Below are positions 8,416 to 48,330 of a stretch of 64,000 bases of DNA, in pieces. Both the position numbers and the translations under genes were made by a program. The notes under the pieces were generated by a model that did no database searches, was not told the origin of the DNA, and saw only the letters and a program-made list of their open reading frames with translations. The DNA is from Cloacibacillus sp. An23. GTDB lineage: Bacteria; Synergistota; Synergistia; Synergistales; Synergistaceae. Every line of letters begins with the position of its first letter. The stretch's first letter is position 1. The stretch spans positions 186,001-250,000 of the forward strand of contig NZ_NFJQ01000004.1 in the NCBI RefSeq assembly GCF_002159945.1, written 5' to 3'.

Positions 8416-8468
8416 CGCGCGCCCGGCGCACTGCCGCCGGACGTATTGGAAAGGAAGGAACGACACTG

Positions 8469-11400: not shown

Positions 11401-14400
11401 GCGCGATATACGGCATAGGCGCGGGACAGAACATTGACGGCTACACTCCGAATCTTTCACACGCGAACTACATAAAGCCGGAAACCACCGGCACGGGGAA
11501 CGACCAGTTCCGCAACCTCAGCAACAGCAACGGCAATAACGTCAAAATAATAGAATACGCGGACAGAGGCGACGCCGATAAATACGACCTCACCAAATTA
11601 GAAAAGCTCGACGGCGACGACTGGAGCGTAAACGACGGCGACTGGCGCATCTACGCAAACGGCACGCCGATACTGAACGCCTTCACGCCGAACATGGCGG
11701 CAAGCGACGGCTGGAAGGATACGGAAGGCATTACCGGCGTCCAGTACGGCACCGCCTATAACCCGTTGCTGACGATACTGAATGTCAGCGATAACGTCAG
11801 CTTCAACTGGGGCGGCCTCGGCCTGACGAGCGCGGGCGGCCTCGCGGTCTACGGCGGCGGCCTGACGCTCGACGGCTTCACCTCGGGCGGCGCCGGGCGT
11901 TATTTCGGCGGCACGCTCTACAGCGACGGAGCGCTTAATGTGAGCGGTACGAGCGGCGGATTCTTCAACCTCGGCAGCGCGGCGCGGCTCTACGGCTCGT
12001 CCGTAACGCTCGACTCGCAAGGCGGAGACATTACGTTATACGGCTCCGTGACCTCGACTAACGGCGGCATAACGATAAACGGCGGCGGCGTCGAGATACT
12101 CGGCTCGCTCACAGCGTCGAAGATCGGCAAAGATACGACGGTAAACGGCATAGCCGCAGGCGCGGAAATCAAGCACGACGACACCTCCGGCCTAAGCACC
12201 CCAGACAACGCGATGACGTCCGTCTCCGACATGCACTCCTTAACTGTAAAGGGAGATAAAGACGGCGACATCACAGTCAGCGCGCAGGGCGGCGCGGAGA
12301 TTCTCTACGGCAACCTCGGAACCGGAAGCGTATCGGCTGGCGGTAATCTCTCCGTGACGAGCGCAAACGGAGCCGTATATGCCGACTCCGACGTAAGCGG
12401 CGTGAACGGGAACATCTCGCTCGAGGCCGGCGGCGAAGCCCTGCTCGACATCACGAACGTGGCGAAGGCCAACGCCGGCGAAGACGACCCGAACGGCACG
12501 AACGCGCTGCATACGTTCCTGGACAACTACAGCGGCGAGAACGGCAAAACGATAACGCTCAAAAGCGCCAACGACGACGTAATAATAGCGATAGACATGT
12601 GGGAAGACAGTGAGGGCGCGTTCGGCCTCGGCAAGTACGACATAACCGGCGGCGCGAAACTGACGGACGCACTGAGCGATCTCAACCTCGGCGGGCTGAA
12701 AGCGGAAGAAGCCGTCCGCATCTGGGTCGGCGACGCGGAACAGCTCAAGGGCATACAGACTTACGCGGAAAGCAACAAAGACAGCAAAATTCTCGGCTAC
12801 AATTTCGCGCTCAGGGACAACATCGACGCGAGCGCGCTCACAGGCTTCACGTCAATCGGCAAGGACGCGGCGAACGGCTTCTCCGGCGTATTCGACGGGC
12901 GCGGCTTCCGCGTCATCGGGCTGACCGCCGAGGGAGAAAACGCCGGCATATTCGACACGCTGACAGGCACGGTGCATGACCTCCGCGTCTACTCCTCCAC
13001 GTTCAGCGGCACGGACAACGCGGGCGCGATAGCGGGCGTCAACAAGGGCGAGATAACCGGCGTCACGACCTTCGGCAACCACGTCGAAGCCGCAGGCGCG
13101 GCGGGCGGCATAGCGGGCGTCAACTCAGGCACGATAGCCGCATCCAACGCCTCCGACTCCGTGATCGCTAACGGCGCAAATGCCTCCGCTGGCGGCGTCG
13201 CCGGTATCAACAATGAGAAGGGCGAGATAGGCGCGGACGGCTCACAGGTAACGGCGGACAGCGCGGTAACGTCCGGCGCAAACGGCGCGGCGGCCCTCGG
13301 CGGCGTCGCCGGCGACAACAAAGGCAGCGTGCTGCTCGCCAACAGCCTCGGCGTGACCAACGGCGCGGGCGCGGACAACATCGGCGGCATAGCCGGCGTC
13401 AACTCCGGCGAGATGAAAAGCCTCTACAACGAAAGCATAGTGACCGGTAAAACCGACACAGGCGGCGTCGCCGGAACCAACAGCGGCACGATAACCAACG
13501 CCGTCAACGCGACGAACGTCACCGGCACGGAAGAAAACACCGGCGGCCTCGTCGGGAAAAACTCCGGCACGGTGGACAGCGGCCGCAACGCGGGCGTTGT
13601 AACCGGCGTCAAGAACGTAGGCGGCATGGTCGGCCACAACGCGGACAAGGGCGCGGCGCTTAAGAACCTATCCAACGCCATAAACGCCTCGATAAACGGG
13701 CAGACCAACGTCGGGGGAATAGCCGGAACCAACGACGGAACGATCAACAACGAAAACGCGCTCGTCAACGAAGGCACCGTAACGGGAACTACGAACGTCG
13801 GCGGCATCGCGGGGATGAACAACGGCACTATACAGAACGTAGATAACCAGACGCTCGTCCTAGAAACCGACGGCGCCGGGGGGCAATACTTCGGCGGCAT
13901 CGCGGGCGTCAACAACGGCACAATAACAGACGCGACGAACACGAGCAGCGTTACCGCGAGCGGCGCGGCGTTCGTCGGCGGAATCGCCGGACAGAACGGA
14001 GAAGACGGACTGCTTCTCGGCGAGCTGACCAACGAAGGCAGCGTCACCGGCAAAGGCAGCGTAGGCGGCCTCGTAGGCTCGAACAGCAACGATGAGCTGC
14101 TCAAGGGCACGGCGGGCAAGCGCATCACCGTCACCAACAAGGGCACCGTAACCGCAACCGAAGGCAGCGCGGGCGGCATATTCTACGAGAACACGGGAAA
14201 CATAGAATACGCCGACCTAACGAACACCGGCACAGTCATCGGGAAGCAGCAGTCCAACACGGGCGGCCTCTTCGGAATCAACAGAGGAAACATCACAAAT
14301 TCGACGCTCGCCAACAGCGGCACGGTTGAAGGCGGCAAAAACACCGGCGGCCTCATAGGCAGCAACAGCGGAAACGTGTCGAGCTCCACGCTGATAAACA

Positions 14401-16376
14401 CAGCGGACGCCGTAGTCAACGGCGGCGATAACACCGGCGGACTGATAGGCTGCAATACAGGCGAGATAGCGGGCGGACGCAACGAGAATGATACTATGTA
14501 CGCCGACCGCATCGTCAACAACGGAAACGTCAAAGGCGGCGACAGCACCGGCGGCCTCATCGGCTACAACGCGGAAGACGGCTCGCTCTACGCGGCTTAC
14601 AACACCGGCGGCGTGAAGGGCGATAACAACGTAGGCGGCGTCGTAGGGACTAACGCGGGAACCGTCAGTTCCGTATTCAACACGATAATGACGAAGGACG
14701 GACAGGGCGAAGAAGTCGCGGGCGCGTCGAACGCCGGCGGCATCGTCGGGAACAACAGCGGCACGCTGACCGATGCCTACAACACGACCGCGGTCGCGGC
14801 GAACGGCACGAAAGGCAGCGCAGTCGGCGAAAACAGCGGCACCATAAAGAACGTCTACGCGACGAACACGGACGGAAAGCTCATAGGCCAGACGACCGAC
14901 GGCGGGAGTGCGCAAAACGTCTACACCTTCGCCGCGGACGACGGCTCCGCGGCATACATAGGCGGCGACGCGCAGAAGCAGAGCGGAAGCTACGACGGCT
15001 TCGACTTCACCGGAACGTGGAAAAACTACGACGGCTGGTCGATGCCGATGCTCGCCGTGTTCCTGACGAAAGCCCAGTACAACGACAATAGCGACCTCAC
15101 ATACAACGCGGGCGAACAGAAGGCCGACGGCAGTTTCACGGCGGCGGACGGACTGACAGCCAATGAGAACACCGGAAACCAGCTTCTTCTACAGACCGCC
15201 CACAAGGACGCAGGTCAGCATATGGCTTATTATTCGAGCCAGATAGCCTCTTCCACCGACGATGATGGAACATTCAACCCCAACAACCTCGGCTATGACA
15301 TCGATAATAACAGCTATACGATAAAGAAGGCGCAGCTCGACGTAATCCTCAACGACATTTACCGCACGTATGGAGACGCCGCGATGTACGATAAAGACGG
15401 CAATGCGACGGACTACGGCCTCTCGCTCAGAACGGGGCTTAACGAGGCGATGCTGGCCGAGCTTGCCGGAGGGCTCTCTATGTCTGATGTCATCGACGGC
15501 GCAGTCCACGGCCTCGCAAACGGCAAAACCACTAACAACGCAGGGACATACGCTTGGAGCGCCCTCGTAACGCTGGCTCAAAGCCTCACAAAGAATTACC
15601 AGCTTGACGCGAACGGGGCCAGTTCCATGCGGGCCGGCGGCGGCAGCTCTTACGTCAACAAGGCCGGCGTAACAATCAGCGTCAATGACGCCTCAACGAC
15701 CTACGGAACGGCGTTCGACAAGAACGGCTATGGGCTGACCTTCGGCGGATTGGTAAACGGCGACACGGCGGACGGTCTGCTCACGGAAATCGGCGACGTG
15801 GAATACACTAACACTGCGGCGCTCGGCGGCACGGATGGGAAATGGACGGCGAACGCCGGAGACCATGAAAACGCTGTTGGTGTAACCGGCGTCGGCGAGC
15901 TCAAGAATTACAATATCGTCGAGATAAACAACGGCGACGCACACATTGAAAAGGCATCGCTCACGATCACCGCCGACGACCAGAACGTCATGCCAGGCGT
16001 CAAGCCGTCGTATACCGGAACGACGCCGGAGCGGCTCGCCGCAATGCTCGTGAACGGCGACAAACCCGGCGGATTCAGCTACGTTTTCGGCGTCGCGGAC
16101 GAGAGCATCGAAGGGCTTCCGGGCTTCTATCCCGGCGCCGTCGGGCTGTTCGCCGGCGGAGATTTCTACGGCGGCGGCGTTTACGACTGGAGCGCGCTCA
16201 GCCCCGTATTCGCAAACTACGACGTGACAGTGGTCCCTGGCTCGCTGACAGTCGTCGCGCCCTACAATCACGGACACCTCCACGGCAACGGATGGAGCCG
16301 CATAATCAATTTCGCCGAGCGCAAAGCCGAAATACATTTCCGCGACGGCGGCATGCTATACGACTCCGGCATCTAG
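8469..16376 (+). CDS. Giant TpsA adhesin with haemagglutinin, GLUG and MBG repeats
   Basis: 2635 residues from the ATG at 8469, behind an AAGGAAGGAA site. Signal peptide about 1-29. TPS/haemagglutination-activity domain about 45-165, with GGNIFIANPAGVSIGNSAQINVGSLYV (NPAG in place of the common NPNG). Two long blocks of GLUG-like repeats (about 340-1000 and 1480-2145), each with a GG(I/V)(V/A)G core, should form a beta-helix-like fibre. A separate beta-rich stretch lies about 1090-1400. Near the C-terminus are MBG-like modules (YRTYGDAAMYD about 2297; ASTTYGTAFDKNGYGL about 2407). It is the secreted substrate of the upstream TpsB, a surface adhesin. No membrane anchor is seen. The many near-identical GG(I)(V)G segments could recombine. 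Confidence 0.9.
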   Translation: MIKQKLKKAAAFAVLFCFTSLTGAQPLYAIPANTQLPTVDNSFTPIGGVNIPGINEIQNNTMNITQTDITSVIKWENFSIGADATVNFTGPKDGFNSLNFVNSGAVSEIYGQLNALGGNIFIANPAGVSIGNSAQINVGSLYVTNREIDERALLNTLTGTSGTDDIRAFIAKQNAQGTAELMSLGSIISTNNKVTFDGDRIVIDADRLYTKSDGTKMMNVETNAITGLTVHTSDADKLILGYSAYDGSTYANKDKTFTLNVNSTANGAKSNSAQGYMWVENAEQLQAMNTNLNGWYALRNSIDANATANFTSIGTAYNSAFSGRLDGLDYSIFGLNISVAGNGPAGLFGYTNGAHIRNFTLNSGSVSGNTLVGSAVGHARGGVIENITNTLTVSGNRQVGGIVGYTDNVAMSNLINTGTVTGDISGNSIGGIVGYMYGGALGGTTYNLGGVSGGHDVGGIVGYAYGATIGGGEFRIYNQLNVTGQYDAGGIVGNLENGTVTNTANYGSVTANGWTEDTYRYHTAETDKNSANLNGAELSDGVASINVNAANAGGIAGKSNGGTITNVTNEGSVTAGQGTLDGGAKYYTAGNVGGIVGRAENTAITKAENKENTVAGAHNAGGIAGYLTGSSSIDGGVNNGGDITATGARKYGDIGFATEYVRSDAGANEKFIVGNIGGIAGYVEGGNAKVSSSGNRGTVHSAYIDGDVVPDTAKAANVGGVVGKIDSDTTGTEEILDSIKGDYGNATVSNSYNTGDVQGYTGVGGVVGMMYNGSVAGSYNLGSVSTTRQIAASGGTNIEPLNMGGVVGDTTEQTDAQAVIYDVYNAGQIGDENFTYFARHAGGVVGRLSGYLEKAYNTGDIYNKDTTVGGVVGWWYNGGIKDVFNTGNITVRAGTELQVGGIVGASSAQSGLELSNAYNLGTIRGFQDSGAAIMVGGIIGRVRGGYNTTISNVYALGNIYAATRNADDNYQSTGTGLGAIYGIGAGQNIDGYTPNLSHANYIKPETTGTGNDQFRNLSNSNGNNVKIIEYADRGDADKYDLTKLEKLDGDDWSVNDGDWRIYANGTPILNAFTPNMAASDGWKDTEGITGVQYGTAYNPLLTILNVSDNVSFNWGGLGLTSAGGLAVYGGGLTLDGFTSGGAGRYFGGTLYSDGALNVSGTSGGFFNLGSAARLYGSSVTLDSQGGDITLYGSVTSTNGGITINGGGVEILGSLTASKIGKDTTVNGIAAGAEIKHDDTSGLSTPDNAMTSVSDMHSLTVKGDKDGDITVSAQGGAEILYGNLGTGSVSAGGNLSVTSANGAVYADSDVSGVNGNISLEAGGEALLDITNVAKANAGEDDPNGTNALHTFLDNYSGENGKTITLKSANDDVIIAIDMWEDSEGAFGLGKYDITGGAKLTDALSDLNLGGLKAEEAVRIWVGDAEQLKGIQTYAESNKDSKILGYNFALRDNIDASALTGFTSIGKDAANGFSGVFDGRGFRVIGLTAEGENAGIFDTLTGTVHDLRVYSSTFSGTDNAGAIAGVNKGEITGVTTFGNHVEAAGAAGGIAGVNSGTIAASNASDSVIANGANASAGGVAGINNEKGEIGADGSQVTADSAVTSGANGAAALGGVAGDNKGSVLLANSLGVTNGAGADNIGGIAGVNSGEMKSLYNESIVTGKTDTGGVAGTNSGTITNAVNATNVTGTEENTGGLVGKNSGTVDSGRNAGVVTGVKNVGGMVGHNADKGAALKNLSNAINASINGQTNVGGIAGTNDGTINNENALVNEGTVTGTTNVGGIAGMNNGTIQNVDNQTLVLETDGAGGQYFGGIAGVNNGTITDATNTSSVTASGAAFVGGIAGQNGEDGLLLGELTNEGSVTGKGSVGGLVGSNSNDELLKGTAGKRITVTNKGTVTATEGSAGGIFYENTGNIEYADLTNTGTVIGKQQSNTGGLFGINRGNITNSTLANSGTVEGGKNTGGLIGSNSGNVSSSTLINTADAVVNGGDNTGGLIGCNTGEIAGGRNENDTMYADRIVNNGNVKGGDSTGGLIGYNAEDGSLYAAYNTGGVKGDNNVGGVVGTNAGTVSSVFNTIMTKDGQGEEVAGASNAGGIVGNNSGTLTDAYNTTAVAANGTKGSAVGENSGTIKNVYATNTDGKLIGQTTDGGSAQNVYTFAADDGSAAYIGGDAQKQSGSYDGFDFTGTWKNYDGWSMPMLAVFLTKAQYNDNSDLTYNAGEQKADGSFTAADGLTANENTGNQLLLQTAHKDAGQHMAYYSSQIASSTDDDGTFNPNNLGYDIDNNSYTIKKAQLDVILNDIYRTYGDAAMYDKDGNATDYGLSLRTGLNEAMLAELAGGLSMSDVIDGAVHGLANGKTTNNAGTYAWSALVTLAQSLTKNYQLDANGASSMRAGGGSSYVNKAGVTISVNDASTTYGTAFDKNGYGLTFGGLVNGDTADGLLTEIGDVEYTNTAALGGTDGKWTANAGDHENAVGVTGVGELKNYNIVEINNGDAHIEKASLTITADDQNVMPGVKPSYTGTTPERLAAMLVNGDKPGGFSYVFGVADESIEGLPGFYPGAVGLFAGGDFYGGGVYDWSALSPVFANYDVTVVPGSLTVVAPYNHGHLHGNGWSRIINFAERKAEIHFRDGGMLYDSGI

Positions 16377-21260: not shown

Positions 21261-21875
21261 ATGGACGCGATACTGCTCGCAGCCGGCCTGTCCAAACGCA
21301 TGGGCCGCCAAAAGCTGCTGCTCCCCTTCGGAAACAAAACAGTGCTCGAAACAGTGATAGACAACCTGCGCGGCGCGGGAATAGAAAAAATACACGCCGT
21401 CATCTCGCGCGAAGTCGCAGCCGCGCTGTCCAACCTTCCGCCGTGCGTCGAGACGCGCGTCAACGAAGCGCCCGAACGCGGACAATCGAGCTCGCTCGCC
21501 ATAGGTTTGGAAATGCTCGGCGAAAGCGGCGACTTCCTCATAATGCTCGGGGATCTCCCACTCGCCGCGTCCGAAGCGATAGCCGCGCTAGCGCGCCGCT
21601 TCGACGCGCTTCCGCCCGAAAAAACGCTGCTCGCCCCCTGCCGCGCGGGAATCTTCGGCCACCCGATGTTCTACCGCGCCGTCTGGCGCGAACGCTTCCG
21701 CGGCGCGCAGGGCGACGCAGGCGGCAGAAAAATCGTAACGCAATACGAACATGAAATAGAACGCATCGAAGCCCCCGACTGCCACTTCAAAGACATGGAC
21801 ACGCCGGAAGAATACGAGGAAAGAGTGCGCCAGGCGATAAGTGGCGCGAACGTGCGGGGAGAGAGTATAATATAG
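21261..21875 (+). CDS. Molybdenum cofactor cytidylyltransferase-like protein (MocA/MobA-like NTP transferase)
   Basis: 204 residues. The nucleotide-binding start ILLAAGLSKRMGRQKLLLPFGNKTVLE and the metal-site LIMLGDLPLAASE are those of MocA/MobA-type transferases that add CMP or GMP to molybdopterin. It forms an operon with yqeC. The last codons contain a perfect TATAAT (21866-21871) that appears to serve a small RNA gene downstream rather than this gene. Confidence 0.8.
   Translation: MDAILLAAGLSKRMGRQKLLLPFGNKTVLETVIDNLRGAGIEKIHAVISREVAAALSNLPPCVETRVNEAPERGQSSSLAIGLEMLGESGDFLIMLGDLPLAASEAIAALARRFDALPPEKTLLAPCRAGIFGHPMFYRAVWRERFRGAQGDAGGRKIVTQYEHEIERIEAPDCHFKDMDTPEEYEERVRQAISGANVRGESII
21866..21871 (+). 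promoter_or_regulatory. -10 element of the crRNA-like RNA upstream of cas3
   Basis: Perfect TATAAT, placed so that transcription would start at about 21878, on the first bases of the degenerate repeat (21877). It overlaps the mocA-like stop codon. No consensus -35 is visible. Confidence 0.55.
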
Positions 21876-21876
21876 C

Positions 21877-21951
21877 GTCGCGTTTTCGCGTTTTGTTGAA
21901 ACCATATTGAATTGGTAAAGGCTGCTCATACAGATAGGAGCGGTCTTTTTT
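21877..21951 (+). ncRNA. Candidate Cas-regulating crRNA-like RNA (CreR type): degenerate repeat, short spacer, terminator
   Basis: 21877-21902 is a 26-nt degenerate CRISPR repeat: it starts GTCGCG, has a CGCG-TTTT-CGCG stem-loop and ends GTTGAAAC, the last eight bases of the array repeats in crRNA sense. The next 17 bases, CATATTGAATTGGTAAA (21903-21919), match 15 of 17 to a site in the cas3 promoter (minus strand, 22001 to 21985) that has a TTC PAM, with mismatches only at positions 9 and 12. Bases 21917-21948 fold into an 11-bp stem (two G-U pairs, 10-nt loop) followed by a T-run, an intrinsic terminator. The RNA would be about 75 nt. By analogy with CreR/CreA RNAs it would guide Cascade to repress cas transcription without cleavage because the match is partial. 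Confidence 0.75.
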
Positions 21952-21984
21952 ATGTGCCCGTATAGGAATAATTTATTATTAAAT

Positions 21985-22017
21985 TTTACTAAATCAATAT
22001 GGAATATATGATATAAT
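21985..22017 (+). promoter_or_regulatory. cas operon promoter overlapping a TTC-PAM pseudo-protospacer
   Basis: TTTACT (21985-21990, 4 of 6 to -35), 16-base spacer and TATGAT (22007-22012); a perfect TATAAT lies at 22012-22017. The minus strand reads TTC (22004-22002) followed by CATATTGATTTAGTAAA (22001-21985), the match for the crRNA-like RNA upstream. Cascade bound here would cover the -35 region. The whole gap is AT-rich. Confidence 0.65.
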
Positions 22018-22051
22018 AATTACAGAAAAAACAACGAAAAGGTGATTTGTC

Positions 22052-24337
22052 ATGGAACGTTACGCCCACATCAGTAAAGACTTCAGAACGCAGACGCTTG
22101 ACGAACATCTGAGAGGAACCGCGGAACTCTCGGCAAAATTTGCAGCCGTTGCAGGCATGGAGCGACTCGCAAAAATATTAAGCAAACAACATGACGCAGG
22201 GAAAAACTCGCATGGCTGGCAATGCTATCTCAAGAAGAGCTCCGGCTTCGATACAAGCATACCTGATGCCGAATGCGACAAAGGCTCCCATTCTGACGCA
22301 GGGGCCGTTTATATGCTGAAAAATTTCCCGAAGCCTCTGAACCTTCTGCTTGCGTACGTCATAGCCGGACATCATGCCGGTCTTCCGGATTTTTACGGCA
22401 GCGGACACGGCAAGGGACTTCTTGAACGATTTTTCGACGACGGCGAACGACTCAAAACAGAGCTGCTCGACGCGGCGGGAGAATACGCGAACATGCCTCT
22501 GCCTGAATGGTGTACGCCGTACGAACTAACCAGATTTTATAAAGAATATACGAAAGAATATATTCACATGTGGGGGCGATTCCTTTTCTCGTGTCTCGTC
22601 GATGCAGACTGGCTCGACACGGAACGTTTTATGAAGCCGGAGGATTTCGCCGCCCGCCGCGAACCGATGGGGCTCGACGAACTGAAGCGGCGATTCGACG
22701 TTTACATTGAATCAAAGCGCCGCTCAGCGCCCGACAGCCGCGTGAACCGGATAAGAAATAAGATTCTTGAGCGCTGTATCGAAGCCGGCGGCATCGCGCC
22801 CGGCTTCTTCTCGCTTACAGTGCCTACAGGCGGAGGAAAGACGCTCTCGTCGCTCGCGTTCGCGCTCGTACACGCTCTGGCACACGGCAAGAGGCGCATA
22901 ATCATAGCGGAACCCTACACGAGCATCATCGAACAGATCGCCAAGGTCTTAAAATACGGCACGGACGACGAAGAAGAGATAAAGCAGATGAAGGAGCGCG
23001 GAGAATGTCTGTTCGGGGAAGAGAACGTGCTCGAACACCACAGCAGCGTAGACCCCGACAAAGAGCTTTATACTAACCGTCTCGCAGCGCAGAACTGGGA
23101 CGCTCCGATAGTAGTCACGACGAACGTGCAGCTGTTCGAGTCTCTTCTAGCGGCGTCGCCAGCGCGCTGCCGCAAGCTGCACAACATCGCGGACAGCATA
23201 ATAATCCTCGACGAAGCGCAAAAGATCCCGGCTGAACACCTGAGCGCCGTCCTGTCGTCGCTGAAGGCGCTCGTCAAACATTTCGGCGTAACCGTGCTTC
23301 TATGTACAGCTACGCAGCCGGCGCTCAACGGCGAAATAGGCGGCGGTTCCGCCATCGTCGAAGGCATAGAAGAATGTACCGAAATAATTCCGGATACCGC
23401 TGGATTGTACGATTCGCTGAAGCGCGTAGAATACCGCGTTTATAAAGACGACATAACCAAAAAGGCGTCATGGGAAGAGATAGCCGGAGAACTTTCAAAA
23501 AAGTCTCAGGTTCTGTGCATCGTCAACAAACGCAAAGACTGCCGCGAGCTGGCGAAGCTGATGCCCAAAGGCACAATCCAGTTGTCCGGCTTTATGTGCG
23601 GCGAGGAGATAAGCGAACTTATCTCCGAAATAAAGCGGCGTCTGAAACTCGGCGACGACGTCCGGGTCATATCGACGCAGCTTATAGAGGCGGGCGTCGA
23701 CGTGGATTTTCCCAGCGTATGGCGCGCGCTCGCACAGCTCGACTCTATAGCGCAGGCGGCCGGACGCAGCAACCGCGAAGGCAGACTGGAAAAAGGAGAA
23801 ATCGTCATATTCAATCCCGAATCCGAGCCTTTCGGCGAAATAAAAATCGGAGCACAGGTCACGACGACTTTCGTGTCGAGGCCGGGATTCTTCGCAGAAC
23901 TTTCGCCCAAGTCGTTCTACAGGTACTTCAGGAAGTTTTACGGTGATATGCACAGCCTAGACAAAAGCAGGTACACAGAACTTCTCGTAAAAGAAGCCGC
24001 AGAGGGACGCATACAGTTCCGCGAATTTGCCGAAGGATTCAAGCTGGTGGACACTTCGGGACAAAAGACTGTATTCGTACCGTACGGAGAAAACGGCAAA
24101 CTGGGGCCGGAACTTATCGAAAGGCTCCGAGCCGAAGGCCCGAGCCGCGAACTGATGGCGTCTCTTCAGCGTTTTACGGTCAATATACCGGAGAGGCTGC
24201 TGAATGAGATCTACGCCAAAGGCGGTATAGAAGACGTGCACGGCTACTATGTGCTGAATAAAATCTTTTACAAACCCGGAGAAGGCATTATTACAGATTC
24301 ATTGTATAATTATGATAAGGATAATTTCATTTACTAA
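22052..24337 (+). CDS. cas3: CRISPR-associated helicase/nuclease Cas3 (type I-C)
   Basis: 761 residues. HD nuclease part: His19, His47-Asp48 (KQHDAGK), His84-type HSDAGAV and IAGHHAGLPD (about 107). Helicase part: Walker A VPTGGGKT (about 257), DEAQ box in IILDEAQKIP (about 386), LCTATQPAL, and STQLIEAGVDVDFP...QAAGRSNREG (about 545-575). It is recruited by target-bound Cascade to unwind and degrade foreign DNA. It is the first gene of the cas operon, with an AAAAGGTGA ribosome site. Its promoter overlaps a predicted crRNA-like RNA target. Confidence 0.95.
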   Translation: MERYAHISKDFRTQTLDEHLRGTAELSAKFAAVAGMERLAKILSKQHDAGKNSHGWQCYLKKSSGFDTSIPDAECDKGSHSDAGAVYMLKNFPKPLNLLLAYVIAGHHAGLPDFYGSGHGKGLLERFFDDGERLKTELLDAAGEYANMPLPEWCTPYELTRFYKEYTKEYIHMWGRFLFSCLVDADWLDTERFMKPEDFAARREPMGLDELKRRFDVYIESKRRSAPDSRVNRIRNKILERCIEAGGIAPGFFSLTVPTGGGKTLSSLAFALVHALAHGKRRIIIAEPYTSIIEQIAKVLKYGTDDEEEIKQMKERGECLFGEENVLEHHSSVDPDKELYTNRLAAQNWDAPIVVTTNVQLFESLLAASPARCRKLHNIADSIIILDEAQKIPAEHLSAVLSSLKALVKHFGVTVLLCTATQPALNGEIGGGSAIVEGIEECTEIIPDTAGLYDSLKRVEYRVYKDDITKKASWEEIAGELSKKSQVLCIVNKRKDCRELAKLMPKGTIQLSGFMCGEEISELISEIKRRLKLGDDVRVISTQLIEAGVDVDFPSVWRALAQLDSIAQAAGRSNREGRLEKGEIVIFNPESEPFGEIKIGAQVTTTFVSRPGFFAELSPKSFYRYFRKFYGDMHSLDKSRYTELLVKEAAEGRIQFREFAEGFKLVDTSGQKTVFVPYGENGKLGPELIERLRAEGPSRELMASLQRFTVNIPERLLNEIYAKGGIEDVHGYYVLNKIFYKPGEGIITDSLYNYDKDNFIY

Positions 24338-24362
24338 CACAATAAATTAGGGAGGGATGTCT

Positions 24363-25067
24363 ATGGAGTATCACGACCCGTTGTACTGCCTCGAAGTGTG
24401 GGGGGATTACGCATGTTTTACGCGGCCGGAGCTCAAGGTCGAGCGCGTGAGCTATGACGTGATTACGCCGTCCGCCGCGAGGATGATCTTCCAGGCCGTC
24501 TTCTGGAAGCCCGCGATACGCTGGCAGGTCGAGCGCATCGACGTGCTGAGTCCGATACGCTGGGTCTCTGTGCGCCGCAACGAAACGGCTAAGCTCTGTT
24601 CGCCTAGCGGCAAGAGCTTCTTCATAGAGGATACGCGCCAGCAGAAGGCGGGGCTTTTCCTGCGCGACGTCAAATACAGGCTTTTCGCGCGGCAGATTTA
24701 TCTGCCGCCTGACAAAAGGCCGAAGCTTTCGCGCGCCGCTTACGAGGATTACGCCGACGCGGAAGAGAAGACGGAGCGCGGAAAGGACGAGAATCCAGGC
24801 AAATATCACGCGATGTTCGAGCGCCGCGCAAAAAAGGGGCAATGCCTTTTCCAGCCTTATCTCGGCTGCCGCGAGTTCAGCTGCCACTGCAAGTTCGTCA
24901 CTGAGCCGTACGGCGCGCATAGCGGCGAAACACGCGAACTCGGCCTCATGCTCTACGATATGGACTACAGCGACGAGGCTGACATCAAACCGATGTTCTT
25001 CCGTGCAAGGCTGGAGAACGGCACGATAAACGTGCCCGCGCCGGAAAGCGGGGAGATTTTCAGATGA
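24363..25067 (+). CDS. cas5c: Cas5c (Cas5d), pre-crRNA endonuclease of type I-C Cascade
   Basis: 234 residues. The RAMP-fold start YCLEVWGDYACFTRPELKVERVSYDVITPSAARMI and GCREFSCHCKFV are typical of the I-C Cas5d family. In this subtype, which lacks cas6, Cas5d cuts the repeat and keeps the 11-nt 5' handle (here TGAGTTGAAAC). Two ATGs compete; 24357 touches the GGAGGG site directly, so 24363 is chosen. It overlaps cas8c in an ATGA junction. Confidence 0.93.
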   Translation: MEYHDPLYCLEVWGDYACFTRPELKVERVSYDVITPSAARMIFQAVFWKPAIRWQVERIDVLSPIRWVSVRRNETAKLCSPSGKSFFIEDTRQQKAGLFLRDVKYRLFARQIYLPPDKRPKLSRAAYEDYADAEEKTERGKDENPGKYHAMFERRAKKGQCLFQPYLGCREFSCHCKFVTEPYGAHSGETRELGLMLYDMDYSDEADIKPMFFRARLENGTINVPAPESGEIFR

Positions 25068-26881
25068 TTTTGCAGTCGCTCGCGAACTACTATATCCGAA
25101 AGTCACGAAATCCAAGCCCGGAAAGCCGCGTAGCCCCGTACGGCATGGAATACAAGGAGATAAAATTCATCATCGAGATAGACGACGACGGGAGCTTCGT
25201 CAACCTCGCCGATTTACGCGACGATAAAAAACGTGGTAAAACTCTGCTAGTACCGAAATCCGTCGGTCGCTCCGGCTCGGCAAGCTGGCAGACGGCGAAT
25301 CTGCTCTGGGACCATTACGGCTACGTTCTCGGCCAATCGAAGGCCGGGACGGAAAATCAGAACGCGGAAGGACAGCTTCGATCTTTCATCGCAAAAATAG
25401 AAAGCCTGCCCGAAGAGCTGAAAAGCGAGGAAGATATAGCCGCCGTCATTAAATGCTATCAAAGAGGCGAATATAAGAAAGTCCTGGAAAGCCCCAACTG
25501 GCCCGAATGCAATAAAATACCGGGCTGCAACATGACGTTCCGGCTTTTTTACGAAAGCCGCGCGGTTACGGAGAACAGGAAACTCATAGACTGGGCCGCG
25601 TCGGCGGTGAACGATGCGCCTGAAAAGGGCGGAGTCGTCGGGCGCTGCCTCGTGACCGGCGAAATAGGCGAGATAGCGCGCACGCACGCCAAGGTAGGCG
25701 TCGGAGGCAGCCAGGCTAACCTTGTCGGTTTTCAGAAAAACAGCGGATACGACTCGTACGGCAAGGAGCAGGGATACAACGCTCCGGTGTCTAAAAAAGC
25801 CGAGTTCTTCTACACGACGGCGCTGAATATACTGCTGAAGTCCCCAAGCAACAGGGCTCTCTTTCTAGACTCGAAGAAAAATATCCGCGTGGCGCTTCTC
25901 TTCTGGGCCGAGCCGCATTCCATTTCTGAAGACGACGCGGCGGACGCCGAACTGGCAGTACGCGCGCTGATATACGGTTCGAGCGGCGAGAGCGGCGATG
26001 ATGCCGACACAGGGATTAAAAACGCTAAAAATATTTTCAAATCTATCTTCAACGGCAGCGTGCCGACTACGACAAAGGACAGATTCTGTGTGCTCGGCAT
26101 CGCTCCGAATAAGGCACGCATCAGCGTCGTATTCTGGACACGCGGAACGCTGAAAGAAATCGCCCAAAATATCTATGAGTATGTGAAAGATGTAAATCTT
26201 GAAAACCGCGTAAATACAATAACTCCCTCCGTCTATGACATCCTGCGCTCCTCCGAATACCAGGGAAAGATGGAAAACGTCCCGTCGAACATGATCCCCG
26301 CGATGGTCTATTCGATTTTCAACGGAACGCCGTTTCCGTCCTCCGTATTCGGTCACGTCATGGCGAGAATACGCGCGGAACACAATCCGAGCAGCGTGCG
26401 CGTCGCGTTTCTCAAAGCATATTTGAACAGAAAATACCGGAACACAAAAGGAGCTGAGCTACAAGTGGCGCTTGATAAGAATAACGCAAACACGGCATAC
26501 AGGCTCGGAAGACTTCTCGCCGTACTACAGAAATTACAGGAAGAGGCGAATCCGGGCATCAACGCGACGTTGATGGACAGGTTTTACAGTTCCATGTCGT
26601 CGACGCCCGCGGCGGTGATTCCGACGCTGCTCCGCCTAAAAACGCACCATCTTGCAAAACTGCCGGTAGGCAGAAAAATCTTTTTCGAAAAAGTATTCAC
26701 GGAGATATTCTCCAATCTCAAACAGGGCGGCATTCCAAAACACATGTCGCTTGAACAGCAGGCCGATTTCGCCGTCGGGTACTATCACCAGCGCGAGGAC
26801 TTGTTCAAGGAAAAAGATAAGGATGCGTCAAACGGCAATAACGAGAGCGCGAACGGTACGAAAAGCGAAGACCAAAACTAA
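25064..26881 (+). CDS. cas8c: Cas8c (Csd1), large subunit of type I-C Cascade
   Basis: 605 residues, the usual Csd1 length. MILQSLANYYIRKSRNPSPESRVAPYGMEYKEIKFII, LLVPKSVGRSGSASWQTANLLWDHYGYVLG and GEIARTHAKVGVGGSQANLVGFQKNSGYDSYGKEQGYNAPVS are classic family stretches. It recognises the PAM and completes the surveillance complex; in I-C systems an internal start also yields a small subunit (Cas11c), which could arise from the C-terminal third here, though I cannot fix its start. The C-terminal tail is polar and Asn/Lys-rich. Confidence 0.95.
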   Translation: MILQSLANYYIRKSRNPSPESRVAPYGMEYKEIKFIIEIDDDGSFVNLADLRDDKKRGKTLLVPKSVGRSGSASWQTANLLWDHYGYVLGQSKAGTENQNAEGQLRSFIAKIESLPEELKSEEDIAAVIKCYQRGEYKKVLESPNWPECNKIPGCNMTFRLFYESRAVTENRKLIDWAASAVNDAPEKGGVVGRCLVTGEIGEIARTHAKVGVGGSQANLVGFQKNSGYDSYGKEQGYNAPVSKKAEFFYTTALNILLKSPSNRALFLDSKKNIRVALLFWAEPHSISEDDAADAELAVRALIYGSSGESGDDADTGIKNAKNIFKSIFNGSVPTTTKDRFCVLGIAPNKARISVVFWTRGTLKEIAQNIYEYVKDVNLENRVNTITPSVYDILRSSEYQGKMENVPSNMIPAMVYSIFNGTPFPSSVFGHVMARIRAEHNPSSVRVAFLKAYLNRKYRNTKGAELQVALDKNNANTAYRLGRLLAVLQKLQEEANPGINATLMDRFYSSMSSTPAAVIPTLLRLKTHHLAKLPVGRKIFFEKVFTEIFSNLKQGGIPKHMSLEQQADFAVGYYHQREDLFKEKDKDASNGNNESANGTKSEDQN

Positions 26882-26893
26882 GGAGGAACTGTA

Positions 26894-27835
26894 ATGACCG
26901 AGCTTAAGAACAAATACGACTTTTTATTCTTCTTCGACGTCAAAGACGGAAACCCGAACGGCGACCCCGACGCAGGAAATCTGCCGCGCATCGACGCTGA
27001 GACCGGCGACGGACTTGTCACCGACGTCTGCATAAAACGCAAGATACGCAACTACTTCCAGATAACGGCGCAGGACAAGCCGGGGTTCGACATTTTCGTG
27101 AAAGAAAAGGCCGTCCTCAATAACATGATAGCGGCGATGTACGACGAGCAGAACGGCGGAAAGACGCCCGATACCCCCGCGGAGACACAGGAGTTCGAGG
27201 ACAAGACGCAGGCCGGAATGTGCCGCAAGTACTTCGACATAAGAGCCTTCGGAGCCGTCATGAGCACCGGCAATAAAGAGGAAGCTGACACAGGCGAAGC
27301 GGAACAGGCAGAAGAAAGCGGCAAAAAGAAAAAGGCCAAGACTAAAATCGTCAAAAAAGCAGGACAGGTGCGCGGCCCTGTGCAGCTCACCTTCTCCCGC
27401 TCCGTTGAACCGATCATCGCGCAGGAACATGCGATAACGCGAATGGCTGTCACAAATGAAAAAGACGCGGAGAAAGAACGCACTATCGGACGCAAGTACA
27501 CTGTGCCGTACGGTCTCTACCGCGGCTGCGGATTCGTTTCGCCATACTTTGCGAAGAAAACAGGCTTCTCCGAGGAGGACTTGAAAGAACTCTGGAAAGC
27601 GATGGAAAATATGTTCGAGTTCGACCATTCTGCGGCACGCGGCATGATGAGCCTGCGCAAGCTCATTGTATTCAGGCACGATTCGGCGCTCGGCGACCGC
27701 CCTGCCTATGAACTTTTCGACAGGGTACAGTGCCGCCGCGTCACGGAAGGGCCTGCGCGCGGATATGAAGACTATTCCATCACGATAGACGGCAAGGAAG
27801 CCGAAGGAATTTTCGTCGAGCTTCCGGCAAAATAG
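26894..27835 (+). CDS. cas7c: Cas7c (Csd2), backbone subunit of type I-C Cascade
   Basis: 313 residues. YDFLFFFDVKDGNPNGDPDAGNLPRID at the N-terminus is the diagnostic Csd2 start; GPVQLTFSRSVEPIIAQEHAITRMAV and YTVPYGLYRGCGFVSPYFA follow. Several copies would wrap the crRNA spacer. A Lys/Glu-rich insertion (about 133-157, KKKKAKTKIVKK) stands out. A strong AAGGAGGA ribosome site precedes it. Confidence 0.95.
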   Translation: MTELKNKYDFLFFFDVKDGNPNGDPDAGNLPRIDAETGDGLVTDVCIKRKIRNYFQITAQDKPGFDIFVKEKAVLNNMIAAMYDEQNGGKTPDTPAETQEFEDKTQAGMCRKYFDIRAFGAVMSTGNKEEADTGEAEQAEESGKKKKAKTKIVKKAGQVRGPVQLTFSRSVEPIIAQEHAITRMAVTNEKDAEKERTIGRKYTVPYGLYRGCGFVSPYFAKKTGFSEEDLKELWKAMENMFEFDHSAARGMMSLRKLIVFRHDSALGDRPAYELFDRVQCRRVTEGPARGYEDYSITIDGKEAEGIFVELPAK

Positions 27836-27837
27836 CC

Positions 27838-28536
27838 ATGAACAGCGACGACGCCGAGCTTCTCATCTCCGGCCTTCAGCATCTTACTTTCTGCGAGAAG
27901 CAGTGGGCGCTGATACATCTTGAGGGGCTCTGGGAGGAGAACGTGCTCACGGCGGAGGGCTCGCACCTTCACGAGCGGGTGCATAAAATCGGGAGAGAGA
28001 GCCGCGGCGAGGTAAAGCTCGCGACAGGGCTTGAACTCAGCTCCGCGAGGCTCGGGCTGTACGGCGTCGCGGACATGGTCGAGTTCCGTCACGACGAGGA
28101 GCGCGGCGTCCGCGTCGCGGCCTTCGGCGGGCGGCGCAGGTGGCTGCCCTACCCCGTCGAGTACAAACACGGGCGCAAACGTCCGGACACGGCCGACGAG
28201 ATGCAGCTCTGCGCGCAGGCCGTCTGCCTTGAAGAAATGCTCGGCGTCGAGATACCTTCGGGCGCGGTCTACTACGGCGAGCCTAAACGCCGCACGGAAA
28301 TAGAGCTTACGCCGGCGCTGCGCGCGAAGCTCGAGGAAAAATGCGCGCGCGCCCGCGCGATCATGAGCGGCGAGGCCGCGCCTGAATATAACGTGGGCAA
28401 ACACTGCAAAAGCTGCTCGATGAACAAATTCTGCATGCCGGAGAAGACGGGCGGCCGCGACCGTTCAGCGCGCTACGTCGCCGGGCTCTTCCGGCTGCTT
28501 TCCGAAAATACCGGCGACGAGGAGGGCGGACTATGA
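27838..28536 (+). CDS. cas4: Cas4 exonuclease of the adaptation module
   Basis: 232 residues. The RecB-like nuclease motifs are visible: Cys19 in LTFCEKQWALI, GVADMVEF (Asp), and YPVEYKHGRKRP (Glu/Lys) followed by DEMQLCAQAVCLEEM (QxxxY-like region). The iron-sulfur cysteines close the protein in HCKSCSMNKFCMP (about 189-199). It trims and selects PAM-bearing prespacers with Cas1-Cas2. It starts 2 bases after cas7 and overlaps cas1 by 4 bases. Confidence 0.95.
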   Translation: MNSDDAELLISGLQHLTFCEKQWALIHLEGLWEENVLTAEGSHLHERVHKIGRESRGEVKLATGLELSSARLGLYGVADMVEFRHDEERGVRVAAFGGRRRWLPYPVEYKHGRKRPDTADEMQLCAQAVCLEEMLGVEIPSGAVYYGEPKRRTEIELTPALRAKLEEKCARARAIMSGEAAPEYNVGKHCKSCSMNKFCMPEKTGGRDRSARYVAGLFRLLSENTGDEEGGL

Positions 28537-29567
28537 GACGTATGCTCAACAGCCTGTTCATAACGACGCAGGGCGCGTGGCTCTCGCTGCGCAACGGCAA
28601 CATAGTCGTAAACGTTGACGGCGAAGAAAAGGCTTCGTTTCCCGCGATAAACTTCGGCTCCATACTCTGCTTCGGCCGCGTCAACGCGACGCCGCCGCTC
28701 ATGGGCTTCTGCGCGGACAACGGGGTGTCTCTGTCGTTTTTCAAGGAAAACGGGCGCTTTCTCGCGCGCGTGCAGGGGCCAGTCCACGGCAACGTGCTGC
28801 TGCGTCGCGCGCAGTACAGGCTGGCGGACGACGAGAAGGCGTCCGCGGAAATCGCGCGCGACGTGCTGATCGGCAAACTGGCGAACACGCGTACAGTCCT
28901 CCGGCGCTTTCTGCGCGACCATCCGCAGGAAGGAGAGGCGGCAGAAAAATTCCGCTCCGCGCTCTCCGTGACGGAGGCGCTCGCGCCGCAGCTCAAAGCC
29001 GCAAAAGATACGGAAGAGCTGCGCGGCTACGAAGGCACGGCGGCGCGCGCATACTTCGACGCCTTCGACGGAATGATCCTGCATCAGAAAGAACACTTCA
29101 AATTCACGGAACGCACGCGCCGCCCGCCGCGCGACGCGGTCAACGCGATGCTCTCGTACATATATTCGATACTTGCGAGCGAGGCCGCCTCGGCGCTCGA
29201 AGGCGCAGGCCTCGACCCCGCCGTGGGATTCCTGCACAAGGACAGGCCCGGCCGCCCGAGCCTCGCGCTCGACCTAATGGAAGAATTCCGCACATGGCTC
29301 GCGGACAGGCTCGTCCTGTCGATGATAAACATGAAACAGGTGAAGCCCGAGGATTTCAGGACGAGCGAAAGCGGCGCGGTGGAAATGGACGGCGGCGCGA
29401 AGAAAAAGCTGATAGCCGAATGGCAGTCGCGCAAGCAGGACGAAATAACACACCCGTACACAGGCGAGAAAATGCCGATAGGCATGGTCCCGCACATGCA
29501 GGCGATGCTCCTCGCGCGGCGCATACGCGGCGACATGAGGGAATATCCGCCCTTCGTCTGGAAATAG
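28533..29567 (+). CDS. cas1: Cas1 integrase
   Basis: 344 residues. RRMLNSLFITTQGAWLSLRNGNIVV starts the N-terminal beta domain. The active-site region of the helical domain is AMLSYIYSILASEAASALEGAGLDPAVGFLH (Glu and His) with RPGRPSLALDLMEEFR (Asp/Glu, about 240-255). It inserts new spacers at the leader-repeat junction together with Cas2. Start ATG overlaps the cas4 stop. Confidence 0.96.
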   Translation: MRRMLNSLFITTQGAWLSLRNGNIVVNVDGEEKASFPAINFGSILCFGRVNATPPLMGFCADNGVSLSFFKENGRFLARVQGPVHGNVLLRRAQYRLADDEKASAEIARDVLIGKLANTRTVLRRFLRDHPQEGEAAEKFRSALSVTEALAPQLKAAKDTEELRGYEGTAARAYFDAFDGMILHQKEHFKFTERTRRPPRDAVNAMLSYIYSILASEAASALEGAGLDPAVGFLHKDRPGRPSLALDLMEEFRTWLADRLVLSMINMKQVKPEDFRTSESGAVEMDGGAKKKLIAEWQSRKQDEITHPYTGEKMPIGMVPHMQAMLLARRIRGDMREYPPFVWK

Positions 29568-29579
29568 GAGGCGTGCAAA

Positions 29580-29870
29580 ATGCTTGTTGTGGTAAGCTAC
29601 GACGTGAACACGCAGAGCGAAGGCGGACAGAAGCGGCTGCGCCGCGTCGCGAAGCTCTGCGAAAAGTACGGCCAGCGCGTGCAGTTCTCCGTCTTTGAAT
29701 GCCTCGTAGACCCGGTGCAGTGGACGGAGCTGAAATTTCAGCTCGAAAAAATGATAGACAAAGAGACGGACAGTCTGCGCTACTACTTCCTCGGCGCGAA
29801 CTGGAAGAAGCGCGTAGAACACTGCGGCGCGAAAGAGCCCTACGACCCGCAGGGCGTGCTGATATTGTAA
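29580..29870 (+). CDS. cas2: Cas2
   Basis: 96 residues. MLVVVSYDVNTQSEGGQKRLRRVAKLCEKYGQRVQFSVFEC is the Cas2 ferredoxin-fold start with the conserved Asp8. It is the structural partner of Cas1 in spacer integration. It is the last gene of the cas operon; only 15 bases later a diverged repeat begins, so no normal leader separates cas2 from the relic array. Confidence 0.96.
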   Translation: MLVVVSYDVNTQSEGGQKRLRRVAKLCEKYGQRVQFSVFECLVDPVQWTELKFQLEKMIDKETDSLRYYFLGANWKKRVEHCGAKEPYDPQGVLIL

Positions 29871-40469: not shown

Positions 40470-42967
40470 GTTTCAACTCACGCGTCCCGCGGGGGACGCG
40501 ACGAGTTCTCTCGCTCATGGGAGGCCGACAATGCCGGTTTCAACTCACGCGTCCCGCGGGGGACGCGACGGGCGCATGAAGGAGTGTGAGACATGGCACA
40601 GCCGTTTCAACTCACGCGTCCCGCGGGGGACGCGACTTCTCCTAGGGCATAACAAGCGTTCACTTTCCAGTTTCAACTCACGCGTCCCGCGGGGGACGCG
40701 ACTATTTTCGAGCGTGATTTGGAGTGGGGTATCAAGTTTCAACTCACGCGTCCCGCGGGGGACGCGACGAGAAGCAGATAAAATGGGCGGCGGAAATCCG
40801 AGGTTTCAACTCACGCGTCCCGCGGGGGACGCGACGCAACGGTATGGTCTGCGATATACCAACCTAGCGTTTCAACTCACGCGTCCCGCGGGGGACGCGA
40901 CGCGCAAGGCAGCCGAGGCCGAGAGCGGTGCACTGTTTCAACTCACGCGTCCCGCGGGGGACGCGACACGATAGTCACGGTCATCCCCGGCTGGGACACC
41001 GTGTTTCAACTCACGCGTCCCGCGGGGGACGCGACTTTGGCGCTTTCGGGGTTCCATAGCTGCATTCCGTTTCAACTCACGCGTCCCGCGGGGGACGCGA
41101 CGCAAAGACGAAAACGTGCCCGACGACACGCCAGAGTTTCAACTCACGCGTCCCGCGGGGGACGCGACGGCGCAGTTGAGCGCGACTGACGGTTCAAGGC
41201 CGTTTCAACTCACGCGTCCCGCGGGGGACGCGACTAGGCATGGGGACGGCAGATTTACGTTATAGAGCTGTTTCAACTCACGCGTCCCGCGGGGGACGCG
41301 ACAGGCAAGCGATACGGCATTTGGAAAGACAACATCGTTTCAACTCACGCGTCCCGCGGGGGACGCGACATTCTTTCAGCTCTGTAATTTCTTCAAAATG
41401 TGGTTTCAACTCACGCGTCCCGCGGGGGACGCGACTTTTAGGGATAAGTCGTACACTATACCTGTATGGTTTCAACTCACGCGTCCCGCGGGGGACGCGA
41501 CGCCGCGCGAGGTGGAGCGTCAGAAGTTGAATCTGTTTCAACTCACGCGTCCCGCGGGGGACGCGACCAACAGTATATTCAATCTGGACACGATTTTTAG
41601 TTTCAACTCACGCGTCCCGCGGGGGACGCGACCCCTTCTCGACGTCATCCGCTCGCTGCCGGAGGAGTTTCAACTCACGCGTCCCGCGGGGGACGCGACG
41701 CGACGTCTTCGCGGAGGACTGCTGTTTCTTCGAGGTTTCAACTCACGCGTCCCGCGGGGGACGCGACGGCGAAGGTGCAGGCGTTTGTGGATTATATCTT
41801 GGTTTCAACTCACGCGTCCCGCGGGGGACGCGACGTGTAATTTACGCTATGACCGCTACCATCTTGGTTTCAACTCACGCGTCCCGCGGGGGACGCGACT
41901 ACATAGACCTCTGCGCCTCGGACACGATAGACGAGTTTCAACTCACGCGTCCCGCGGGGGACGCGACTAAGGTATCCGTCCACTGTATGGCTCTTCTGGA
42001 AGTTTCAACTCACGCGTCCCGCGGGGGACGCGACGATGCAGCAGCAGAAACGTAAGTTTACAGAATTCAGTTTCAACTCACGCGTCCCGCGGGGGACGCG
42101 ACCAATCAAAAATCGTAGGGTGATGCGGATGTTTGTTTCAACTCACGCGTCCCGCGGGGGACGCGACAGTATTTACCGTCGAAGAGCTCAAGCGCCAGTA
42201 CAGTTTCAACTCACGCGTCCCGCGGGGGACGCGACGCAAAAGAAATGAACAGCATGTTTGACTATCGAGTTTCAACTCACGCGTCCCGCGGGGGACGCGA
42301 CTCCTAGTTATCAGTTGCCCGAAGCCATCCCGGTCGTTTCAACTCACGCGTCCCGCGGGGGACGCGACTTGAAAATCGTAATTGTCATGGCAAAACTGAC
42401 AGTTTCAACTCACGCGTCCCGCGGGGGACGCGACGCGGCGATATTGTCTTTTTAACTCTTCGACGGTGTTTCAACTCACGCGTCCCGCGGGGGACGCGAC
42501 GCGGCTAACGGCCTATATGAGCGAGATTACGTCGGTTTCAACTCACGCGTCCCGCGGGGGACGCGACAAAATCAACATGGAGGCGCTGTAAACACTTGTA
42601 GTTTCAACTCACGCGTCCCGCGGGGGACGCGACCCAACTCTCCGCACGTGAATTTGATATGATACCGGTTTCAACTCACGCGTCCCGCGGGGGACGCGAC
42701 GCCGCAGTGCCCCAGTAGTCCGGCCCGCTCTGATGTTTCAACTCACGCGTCCCGCGGGGGACGCGACTAGACGTTGTTGTTCTCATTGTCGGAGGCTCTA
42801 AGTTTCAACTCACGCGTCCCGCGGGGGACGCGACCTGGGGATGTGGGTATATAAGCCGTTTGTTTATCGTTTCAACTCACGCGTCCCGCGGGGGACGCGA
42901 CAACGCAAAAGGATGGAGCATTGACGCCATCGAAGTTTCAACTCACGCGTCCCGCGGGGGACGCGAC
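40470..42967 (-). CRISPR. CRISPR array 1, type I-C: 38 identical 33-nt repeats, 37 spacers
   Basis: I counted 38 repeats, starting at 40470 and then every 65-68 bases to 42935, all apparently identical, with 37 spacers of 32-35 nt. In crRNA sense (minus strand) the repeat is GT + 8-bp stem (CGCGTCCC/GGGACGCG) with a CCGC loop + the 11-nt handle TGAGTTGAAAC, matching type I-C repeats. The leader lies on the right (past 42967), so the newest spacers are at the high-coordinate end. It lies 10.6 kb from the cas operon, on the opposite strand. Open frames through this region are artefacts of the repeats. Confidence 0.97.
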
Positions 42968-46912: not shown

Positions 46913-48330
46913 GTTTCGACTCACGTGCTCGCGAGGAGCGCGACATATATCGTTATACATATACTTGACCACATCACGGTTTCAACTCACGCGCTCGCGA
47001 GGAGCGCGACGCAAAAAAGCGCTGACGGGTCATTCGTGTACCCGTTTCAACTCACGCGCTCGCGAGGAGCGCGACACCGGCACCCACGCCGGTCGTACAG
47101 AGCAGTTTGCAGTTTCAACTCACGCGCTCGCGAGGAGCGCGACTGAGGCCGTCGCTGTAGTTCTTGAGGTAGCTTATGTTTCAACTCACGCGCTCGCGAG
47201 GAGCGCGACTCGATGAGTTTTTCGAGGTCTGCCGGTGAGTAGGGGTTTCAACTCACGCGCTCGCGAGGAGCGCGACTAGGCCGCGGCGTATGGCGAGGCC
47301 GCCGCTTAATGGTTTCAACTCACGCGCTCGCGAGGAGCGCGACCTCTGGGGCACGTACCTCTTCAAGCGCCGTGGGTTTCAACTCACGCGCTCGCGAGGA
47401 GCGCGACCGCGCACGAGGCCGCGATAAACAAGCATAACAGGTTTCAACTCACGCGCTCGCGAGGAGCGCGACGGATGCTCTTTAGTATTTATGGCCGGAG
47501 AGACAAGTTTCAACTCACGCGCTCGCGAGGAGCGCGACACGGATGCTTTAGCAGTATCTATAGACGACACGGTTTCAACTCACGCGCTCGCGAGGAGCGC
47601 GACGCGCAGCGGCCCTTCACGAGTCGGAACAGAGCAGTTTCAACTCACGCGCTCGCGAGGAGCGCGACGAAGGTACAGGCGCGTATCTAGCAGTGGATGG
47701 CGTTTCAACTCACGCGCTCGCGAGGAGCGCGACAAAATTCGCCCGACACGGATATTATACCACAGGAGGTTTCAACTCACGCGCTCGCGAGGAGCGCGAC
47801 TGCGTTTCGCAATAGGTCTATAGTCCCATTTGATGTTTCAACTCACGCGCTCGCGAGGAGCGCGACAAAAAAGGCGAGCGCGGCATGGCGCGCGGCTATG
47901 GTTTCAACTCACGCGCTCGCGAGGAGCGCGACGGCGAGACGACGACACAGTACCTTTTAGCGCCTGGTTTCAACTCACGCGCTCGCGAGGAGCGCGACCA
48001 GTCACAAGTCAAAAAGTTGTGCCTTGACGGCAGTTTCAACTCACGCGCTCGCGAGGAGCGCGACGGCTCCTGACCCGCGAAGCGCACGAAGCCGGCCGGT
48101 TTCAACTCACGCGCTCGCGAGGAGCGCGACTCCTTGCGCCGCTCAGCGATAAGCCCCTTAGAACGTTTCAACTCACGCGCTCGCGAGGAGCGCGACGCTT
48201 TTTCGCTCATAACTTCACCTCCTCACCACACTGTTTCAACTCACGCGCTCGCGAGGAGCGCGACCGAGCACGCTGTTCCGCTGTCCCGTCAGGCTCTTGT
48301 TTCAACTCACGCGCTCGCGAGGAGCGCGAC
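46913..48330 (-). CRISPR. CRISPR array 2, type I-C: 22 repeats of 32 nt, 21 spacers
   Basis: I counted 22 repeats from 46913 to 48299 with 21 spacers of 32-36 nt. In crRNA sense the repeat is GT + CGCGCTC/GAGCGCG stem + handle TGAGTTGAAAC; the handle equals that of array 1 but the stem differs on both sides. The first repeat on the left (46913-46944) carries two changes (GTTTCG, ACGTG), marking the leader-distal end, and a weaker repeat-like end (GCGCGAC at 46871-46877, 35 bases further left) suggests another decayed unit. Transcription is therefore from the right, minus strand. Confidence 0.97.

Follow-up and report, generated by a model that had tools for sequence, protein, structure and literature searches.

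A probable CreR-type guide RNA gene matching the promoter of a type I-C cas operon in Cloacibacillus sp. An23

The type I-C locus and a crRNA-like gene outside its arrays

The window, a 64,000-nucleotide stretch of the Cloacibacillus sp. An23 genome (Synergistales), carries a complete type I-C set, identified with curated models in the order cas3-cas5c-cas8c-cas7-cas4-cas1-cas2. On the plus strand, cas3 (22052..24337), the first gene of the putatively repressed operon, is followed by cas5c (24357..25067; TIGR01876), cas8c/csd1 (25064..26881; TIGR01863), cas7/csd2 (26894..27835; TIGR02589), cas4 (27838..28536; TIGR00372), cas1c (28533..29567; TIGR03640) and cas2 (29580..29870; TIGR01573). Two canonical CRISPR arrays, both on the minus strand, are separated from the cas genes by more than 10 kb: array 1 at 40470..42941, with a 33-nt repeat, and array 2 at 46979..48305, with a 32-nt repeat. 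Their repeats, GTCGCGTCCCCCGCGGGACGCGTGAGTTGAAAC and GTCGCGCTCCTCGCGAGCGCGTGAGTTGAAAC, differ in stem sequence and length and have an identical handle. The crRNAs of subtype I-C are made by Cas5c rather than by Cas6, and the product of cas5c is expected to be the crRNA-processing nuclease here. Just 3' of cas2, at 29888-30365, there are four degenerate repeats with irregular spacing that look like a decaying cas-proximal array. Elsewhere in the window, a 2789-aa ORF (8007-16376) with many glycine-rich repeats and a weak Pfam match to Peptidase_M26_N, below cut-off, probably encodes a secreted adhesin-like protein.

Between a mocA-like gene and the cas3 start at 22052 stands a crRNA-like gene, which we call creR. 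It lies outside the arrays, on the plus strand, and its repeat is a degenerate form of the one used by this I-C system. A first-pass annotation, made from the sequence alone, had described a TATAAT, a degenerate repeat, a guide and an 11-bp hairpin with a T-run in this interval, and all of these elements were found in place. The TATAAT (21866..21871) would serve as the -10 element and falls within the final bases of the mocA-like gene, which ends at 21875; the -35 is weak or absent, leaving the -10 as the only convincing part of this promoter. The degenerate repeat, or psi-repeat, GTCGCGTTTTCGCGTTTTGTTGAAAC (21877..21902, 26 nt), was assigned by comparison with the array repeats and by folding. 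It consists of a 4-bp CGCG stem and a handle of 11-12 nt ending in GTTGAAAC, so that it keeps the GTCGCG start and the GTTGAAAC end of the array repeats but has a stem of 4 bp in place of 8 bp. The guide, or psi-spacer, CATATTGAATTGGTAAA follows directly (21903..21919, 17 nt), and an 11-bp terminator hairpin with a T-run (21917..21951) closes the gene, standing where a second repeat would be. The stem arms of this hairpin occupy 21917-21927 and 21938-21948, and the RNA fold has an energy of -13.8 kcal/mol (z -3.85). An Rfam search returned no match.

Pairing at the cas promoter and in other type I-C loci

The guide has partial complementarity to a site in the cas operon promoter that adjoins a valid PAM. 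Read on the minus strand, the target (21985..22001) is CATATTGATTTAGTAAA and is preceded by TTC (22002..22004), a PAM documented for type I-C in Xanthomonas (PMC8406640). Fifteen of the 17 positions pair, with mismatches only at 9 and 12, and the handle and the PAM set exactly the same register: guide position 1, directly behind the handle, lines up with the base directly behind the PAM. This is the pairing that the first-pass annotation had read on the minus strand from 22004, with positions 1-8 paired. None of 20,000 dinucleotide shuffles of 21920-22051 contained an equally good TTC-flanked match, and a perfect 7-position seed with the PAM alone arose in 16 of 20,000. A pattern search of the 2.9-Mb genome found TTC followed by CATATTGA at just two sites, one of them the cas promoter. 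Because the best promoter match upstream of cas3, by consensus alone, is TTTACT-N16-TATGAT (21985..22012, plus strand), the target would cover the -35, as had been claimed, and most of the promoter spacer as well. From the predicted start of cas transcription to the cas3 ATG there are only ~33 nt (22019-22051). With the thresholds used, neither the array spacers nor the four degenerate repeats beyond cas2 gave a PAM-flanked seed match elsewhere in the window.

Similar pairs recur. The regions upstream of type I-C cas3 genes were sampled from Synergistales, from 80 named genomes and from a draw of the phylum to which Cohnella belongs (Bacillota). In the Synergistales sample, the cas3 of G084 (L150) has the same score as that of L054, a record from an uncultured Synergistales bacterium. 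In a first scan, the 17 nt following a handle-like heptamer were matched to a PAM-flanked site near the locus's own cas3 start, and the null model paired the guides of one locus with the promoters of other loci. At a score of at least 13, seven of 158 I-C loci were recovered against 0.05 expected from the swaps: the host locus (L022), L152, L151, L170, L218, L144 and L145, with L037 as a weaker eighth. A second scan did not require a PAM and weighted all 17 positions equally; 15 loci reached at least 14/17 (~1.2 expected), and nine of the 15 have TTC or TTT at the flank, including L061 (Desulfobacula), L176 and L030. When the handle was exactly TTGAAAC, six loci reached at least 14/17, all six with TTC or TTT, while exact matches to six control heptamers yielded at most one such locus in the same PAM-free scan. 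Except in the congeners L144 and L145, the guides are unrelated sequences from locus to locus. Pairs occur in Synergistales and Bacillota, to which the PAM-free scan adds Desulfobacula. Within Synergistales the element is present in only ~7 of 29 surveyed I-C loci, and G019, the closest cas3 relative (48% identity), is without it. Two further candidates were set aside: an array spacer at L131 with a TTA flank, a weak case from a handle search extending up to 22 kb, was not counted, and L002 (C2:177179), the second place in the genome with a double TTGAAAC, is a tRNA-Leu/integrase attachment region and not a Cre element.

The mismatches in these pairs are not evenly spread. In the nine TTC- or TTT-flanked pairs of the PAM-free scan, 12 of the 16 mismatches within positions 1-14 fall on position 6 or 12 (binomial p ~1e-7, or ~4e-7 with the congener pair counted once). 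An eight-pair tally, with mismatches in 12/16 cells at positions 6 and 12 versus 5/96 elsewhere, is the weaker statement because it includes pairs from a score that ignored 6 and 12. Tolerance at every sixth position is typical of Cascade, and the host's mismatch at 12, already attributed to this rule by the first-pass annotation, fits the pattern of the nine pairs; its mismatch at 9 is extra. Experiments with the H. hubeiense CreA likewise found positions 6 and 12 dispensable and positions 1-5 and 7-11 needed (PMC8501985). This 6/12 signature favors recognition of the Cascade type and disfavors a simple DNA duplication.

Co-variation of guide and promoter within the genus

The corresponding locus in a second genome of the genus, G004, was located by DNA search of the family. 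The same upstream genes are followed by TATAAT at a similar spacing to the repeat, a degenerate repeat ending in GTGAGTTGAAAT, the guide AATATCGTATCAGTGAA and a terminator hairpin; handle and hairpin are retained, and the stem bases of the hairpin have changed. Relative to the host, the G004 guide differs at positions 1, 6, 8, 11, 12 and 15. The G004 contig ends in ...CACAGATACGA, which on the minus strand matches guide positions 5-11 and 13-16, a match equaled in only 4 of 200,000 shuffled contig tails. At 6, 8, 11 and 15 the target carries the same alterations as the guide, so that leaving position 12 aside, 4/4 of the readable guide changes are mirrored. Neither genome pairs at position 12, and position 9 is paired only in G004. 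A second G004 contig starts 51 bp ahead of a cas3; the two contigs are taken to be neighbors on the model of the host genome's layout, and the PAM and the target bases for guide positions 1-4 fall in the gap between them. A pattern search for sequence across this gap had the guide itself as its sole match.

Guide and promoter therefore co-vary in G004, as is characteristic of a pairing maintained by selection, with the PAM and positions 1-4 lying in the contig gap. Conservation of the pairing in relatives had been named beforehand as a check on the CreR reading, and the G004 locus passes it. Because the Cas3 proteins of the two genomes are only about one-third identical, guide and target have stayed paired even as the effector diverged or was replaced by another.

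Could the element be a non-functional relic, a stray or decaying repeat beside the cas genes whose likeness to the promoter reflects chance or an old DNA duplication? The repeat is degenerate, and further degenerate repeats do lie 3' of cas2 (29888-30365). Chance is rejected by the shuffles and the locus swaps, however, and a duplication would leave unexplained the concentration of mismatches at 6 and 12, the mirrored changes in G004, the PAM abutting the guide register and the preserved terminator. We regard a relic as very unlikely.

Proposed autorepression and its place among known systems

Based on the anatomy, the pairing, its co-variation and the 6/12 signature, we propose that creR is very probably a CreR-type autorepressor of the subtype I-C cas operon, acting through Cascade at Cascade's own promoter. 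The first-pass annotation had arrived at this core reading, which the G004 locus, the recurrence in other I-C loci and the I-C operon models now support. Transcription of creR would yield a short crRNA-like RNA composed of psi-repeat, 17-nt guide and terminator hairpin, which the I-C Cascade (Cas5c, Cas8c and Cas7) is expected to load. Guide positions 1-8, 10-11 and 13-17, together with the TTC PAM, would direct the complex onto the -35 of the cas3-led operon, where it would obstruct RNA polymerase. The complementarity stops at ~17 nt and should be insufficient for cutting. By occupying the cas promoter, Cascade would restrict its own production. This repressor could be titrated by crRNAs that the two arrays supply in abundance, or disabled by anti-CRISPR proteins, and in either case cas expression would rise. 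The earlier proposal that the operon de-represses when crRNA is scarce has the direction reversed: in published CreR biology it is an excess of crRNAs that competes with CreR for Cas proteins and so derepresses cas, and anti-CRISPRs act likewise, in keeping with the anti-CRISPR clause of that proposal (PMC12737573). Several features count against the CreR assignment: the weak -35 of creR, the short 4-bp repeat stem and the host mismatch at position 9, since haloarchaeal CreA function is lost by single changes in positions 1-5 or 7-11 (PMC8501985). The contig gap in G004, the lack of an element in G019 and its presence in a minority of the Synergistales I-C loci also weigh against it.

The RNA might instead pair with the cas promoter and act independently of Cascade, for instance as an antisense to the cas leader RNA, or another regulator might bind at the promoter site; this reading, too, is very unlikely. 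The target is close to the likely cas start site, and small RNAs can be antisense; but the target sits at the -35, ahead of where transcription is predicted to begin, and would be absent from the cas mRNA, and the repeat handle, the TTC PAM and the 6/12 pattern are hallmarks of recognition by Cascade. An addiction module of the CreTA or CrePA kind, whose guide would act on more than cas by repressing a small toxin gene or a toxin RNA, follows the same logic and may seem suggested by L061 and L030, relatives with a small ORF between target and cas3, but it is scarcely credible at the host locus, where the ~33 nt between the predicted cas start and the cas3 ATG leave no room for a toxin gene.

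The anatomy and mismatch signature of creR are those of CreR, as is its function in so far as sequence predicts it. CreR has been described for types I-B, I-E and V-A (review PMC13131331). CreR (Liu et al., 2023), as outlined in PMC13131331 and PMC12737573, shares with creR the ectopic degenerate repeat, the short guide, the PAM, the partial complementarity to the cas promoter, the predicted Cascade-dependent autorepression and the absence of a toxin; here, no toxin gene stands under the repressed promoter, whose leader runs ~33 nt to cas3. The creR gene differs in subtype (I-C as against I-B, I-E and V-A) and in its Synergistales host. CreA of the CreTA modules (H. hispanica, H. hubeiense) has in common the TTC PAM and the indifference to positions 6 and 12, and the H. 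hispanica gene has a single psi-repeat closed by a terminator (PMC8501985). CreA represses a toxin RNA (PMC8501985), whereas the predicted target unit here is cas3 and the operon behind it; no toxin RNA gene fits in the space between the targeted promoter and cas3. Nor does that space hold any ORF that could be a small protein toxin of the kind found in CrePA (Shu et al., 2025, cited in PMC13131331), which shares Cascade-guided repression relieved by anti-CRISPRs and differs in repressing a protein toxin, one that the host locus is without. In type II-A autorepression by the long form of tracrRNA, Cas9 also uses a natural guide against the operon that encodes it, and anti-CRISPRs lift the repression, but the effector is different, the guide derives from tracrRNA and the origin is independent (PMC11417352; Workman et al., 2024, in PMC13131331). 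The solitary phage or prophage repeat that defines a Racr (RNA anti-CRISPR) does not describe creR, which lies between a conserved mocA and cas3, also in G004.

As far as the reviewed literature shows, what is new is the subtype, I-C with its Cas5c-processed crRNAs, the lineage and the co-variation within a genus; Liu et al. (2023) may already predict I-C members. The assignment would extend RNA-guided cas self-repression to type I-C, which is both common and widely used among CRISPR subtypes. Guide and promoter have changed together between two species of one genus, which amounts to a natural co-variation experiment. The guide/target pairs can be used to test I-C Cascade binding without cutting, and they bear on the tuning of cas expression against phage anti-CRISPRs. 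More broadly, we lean slightly toward the view that I-C Cascade has repeatedly come to carry guide RNAs that evolve fast and target promoters, across three or more phyla and in several layouts (separate creR, leader creR, and creA with a small hydrophobic ORF resembling a toxin-antitoxin pair), with guide and promoter co-evolving while effectors diverge or are swapped. The same parts may have become toxin modules in relatives.

The layouts vary among the sampled loci. In Desulfobacula sp. SM1_1_2 (L061), the interval from ~430 to 70 nt upstream of cas3 holds a creA-like guide, whose TTC-flanked target lies at the guide's own promoter, and then a small hydrophobic ORF of 43 residues (MEVSFQDVISFLQNNKIETLIYCFILYFLFKADITIKYPRKKN), for which a Pfam search gave no match. 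Its close sister L064 is without the ~330-bp insert that carries guide and ORF, and L061 is possibly a CrePA/CreTA-like toxin-antitoxin module within a type I-C locus. At L164/L134 (G014), the guide TTTGTGTTATATGTATT, a psi-repeat GTCGTGCCTTTTAGGCACGTTAGTTGAAAC and a terminator lie ~520 to 150 nt upstream of cas3, and the targeted promoter precedes cas3 by ~385 nt, with perhaps a small ORF between the two; this is a lead for either a CreR or a toxin module. At L144 (G156) and L145 (G158), creR sits in the cas leader, 3' of the targeted promoter, and its terminator hairpin precedes cas3. The guide gene's own promoter appears to be the target there, and the cas genes may be expressed through read-through from this self-repressed promoter. 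At L176 (G436), degenerate repeats also lie upstream of cas3, and the guide differs from its TTT-flanked target exactly at positions 6 and 12.
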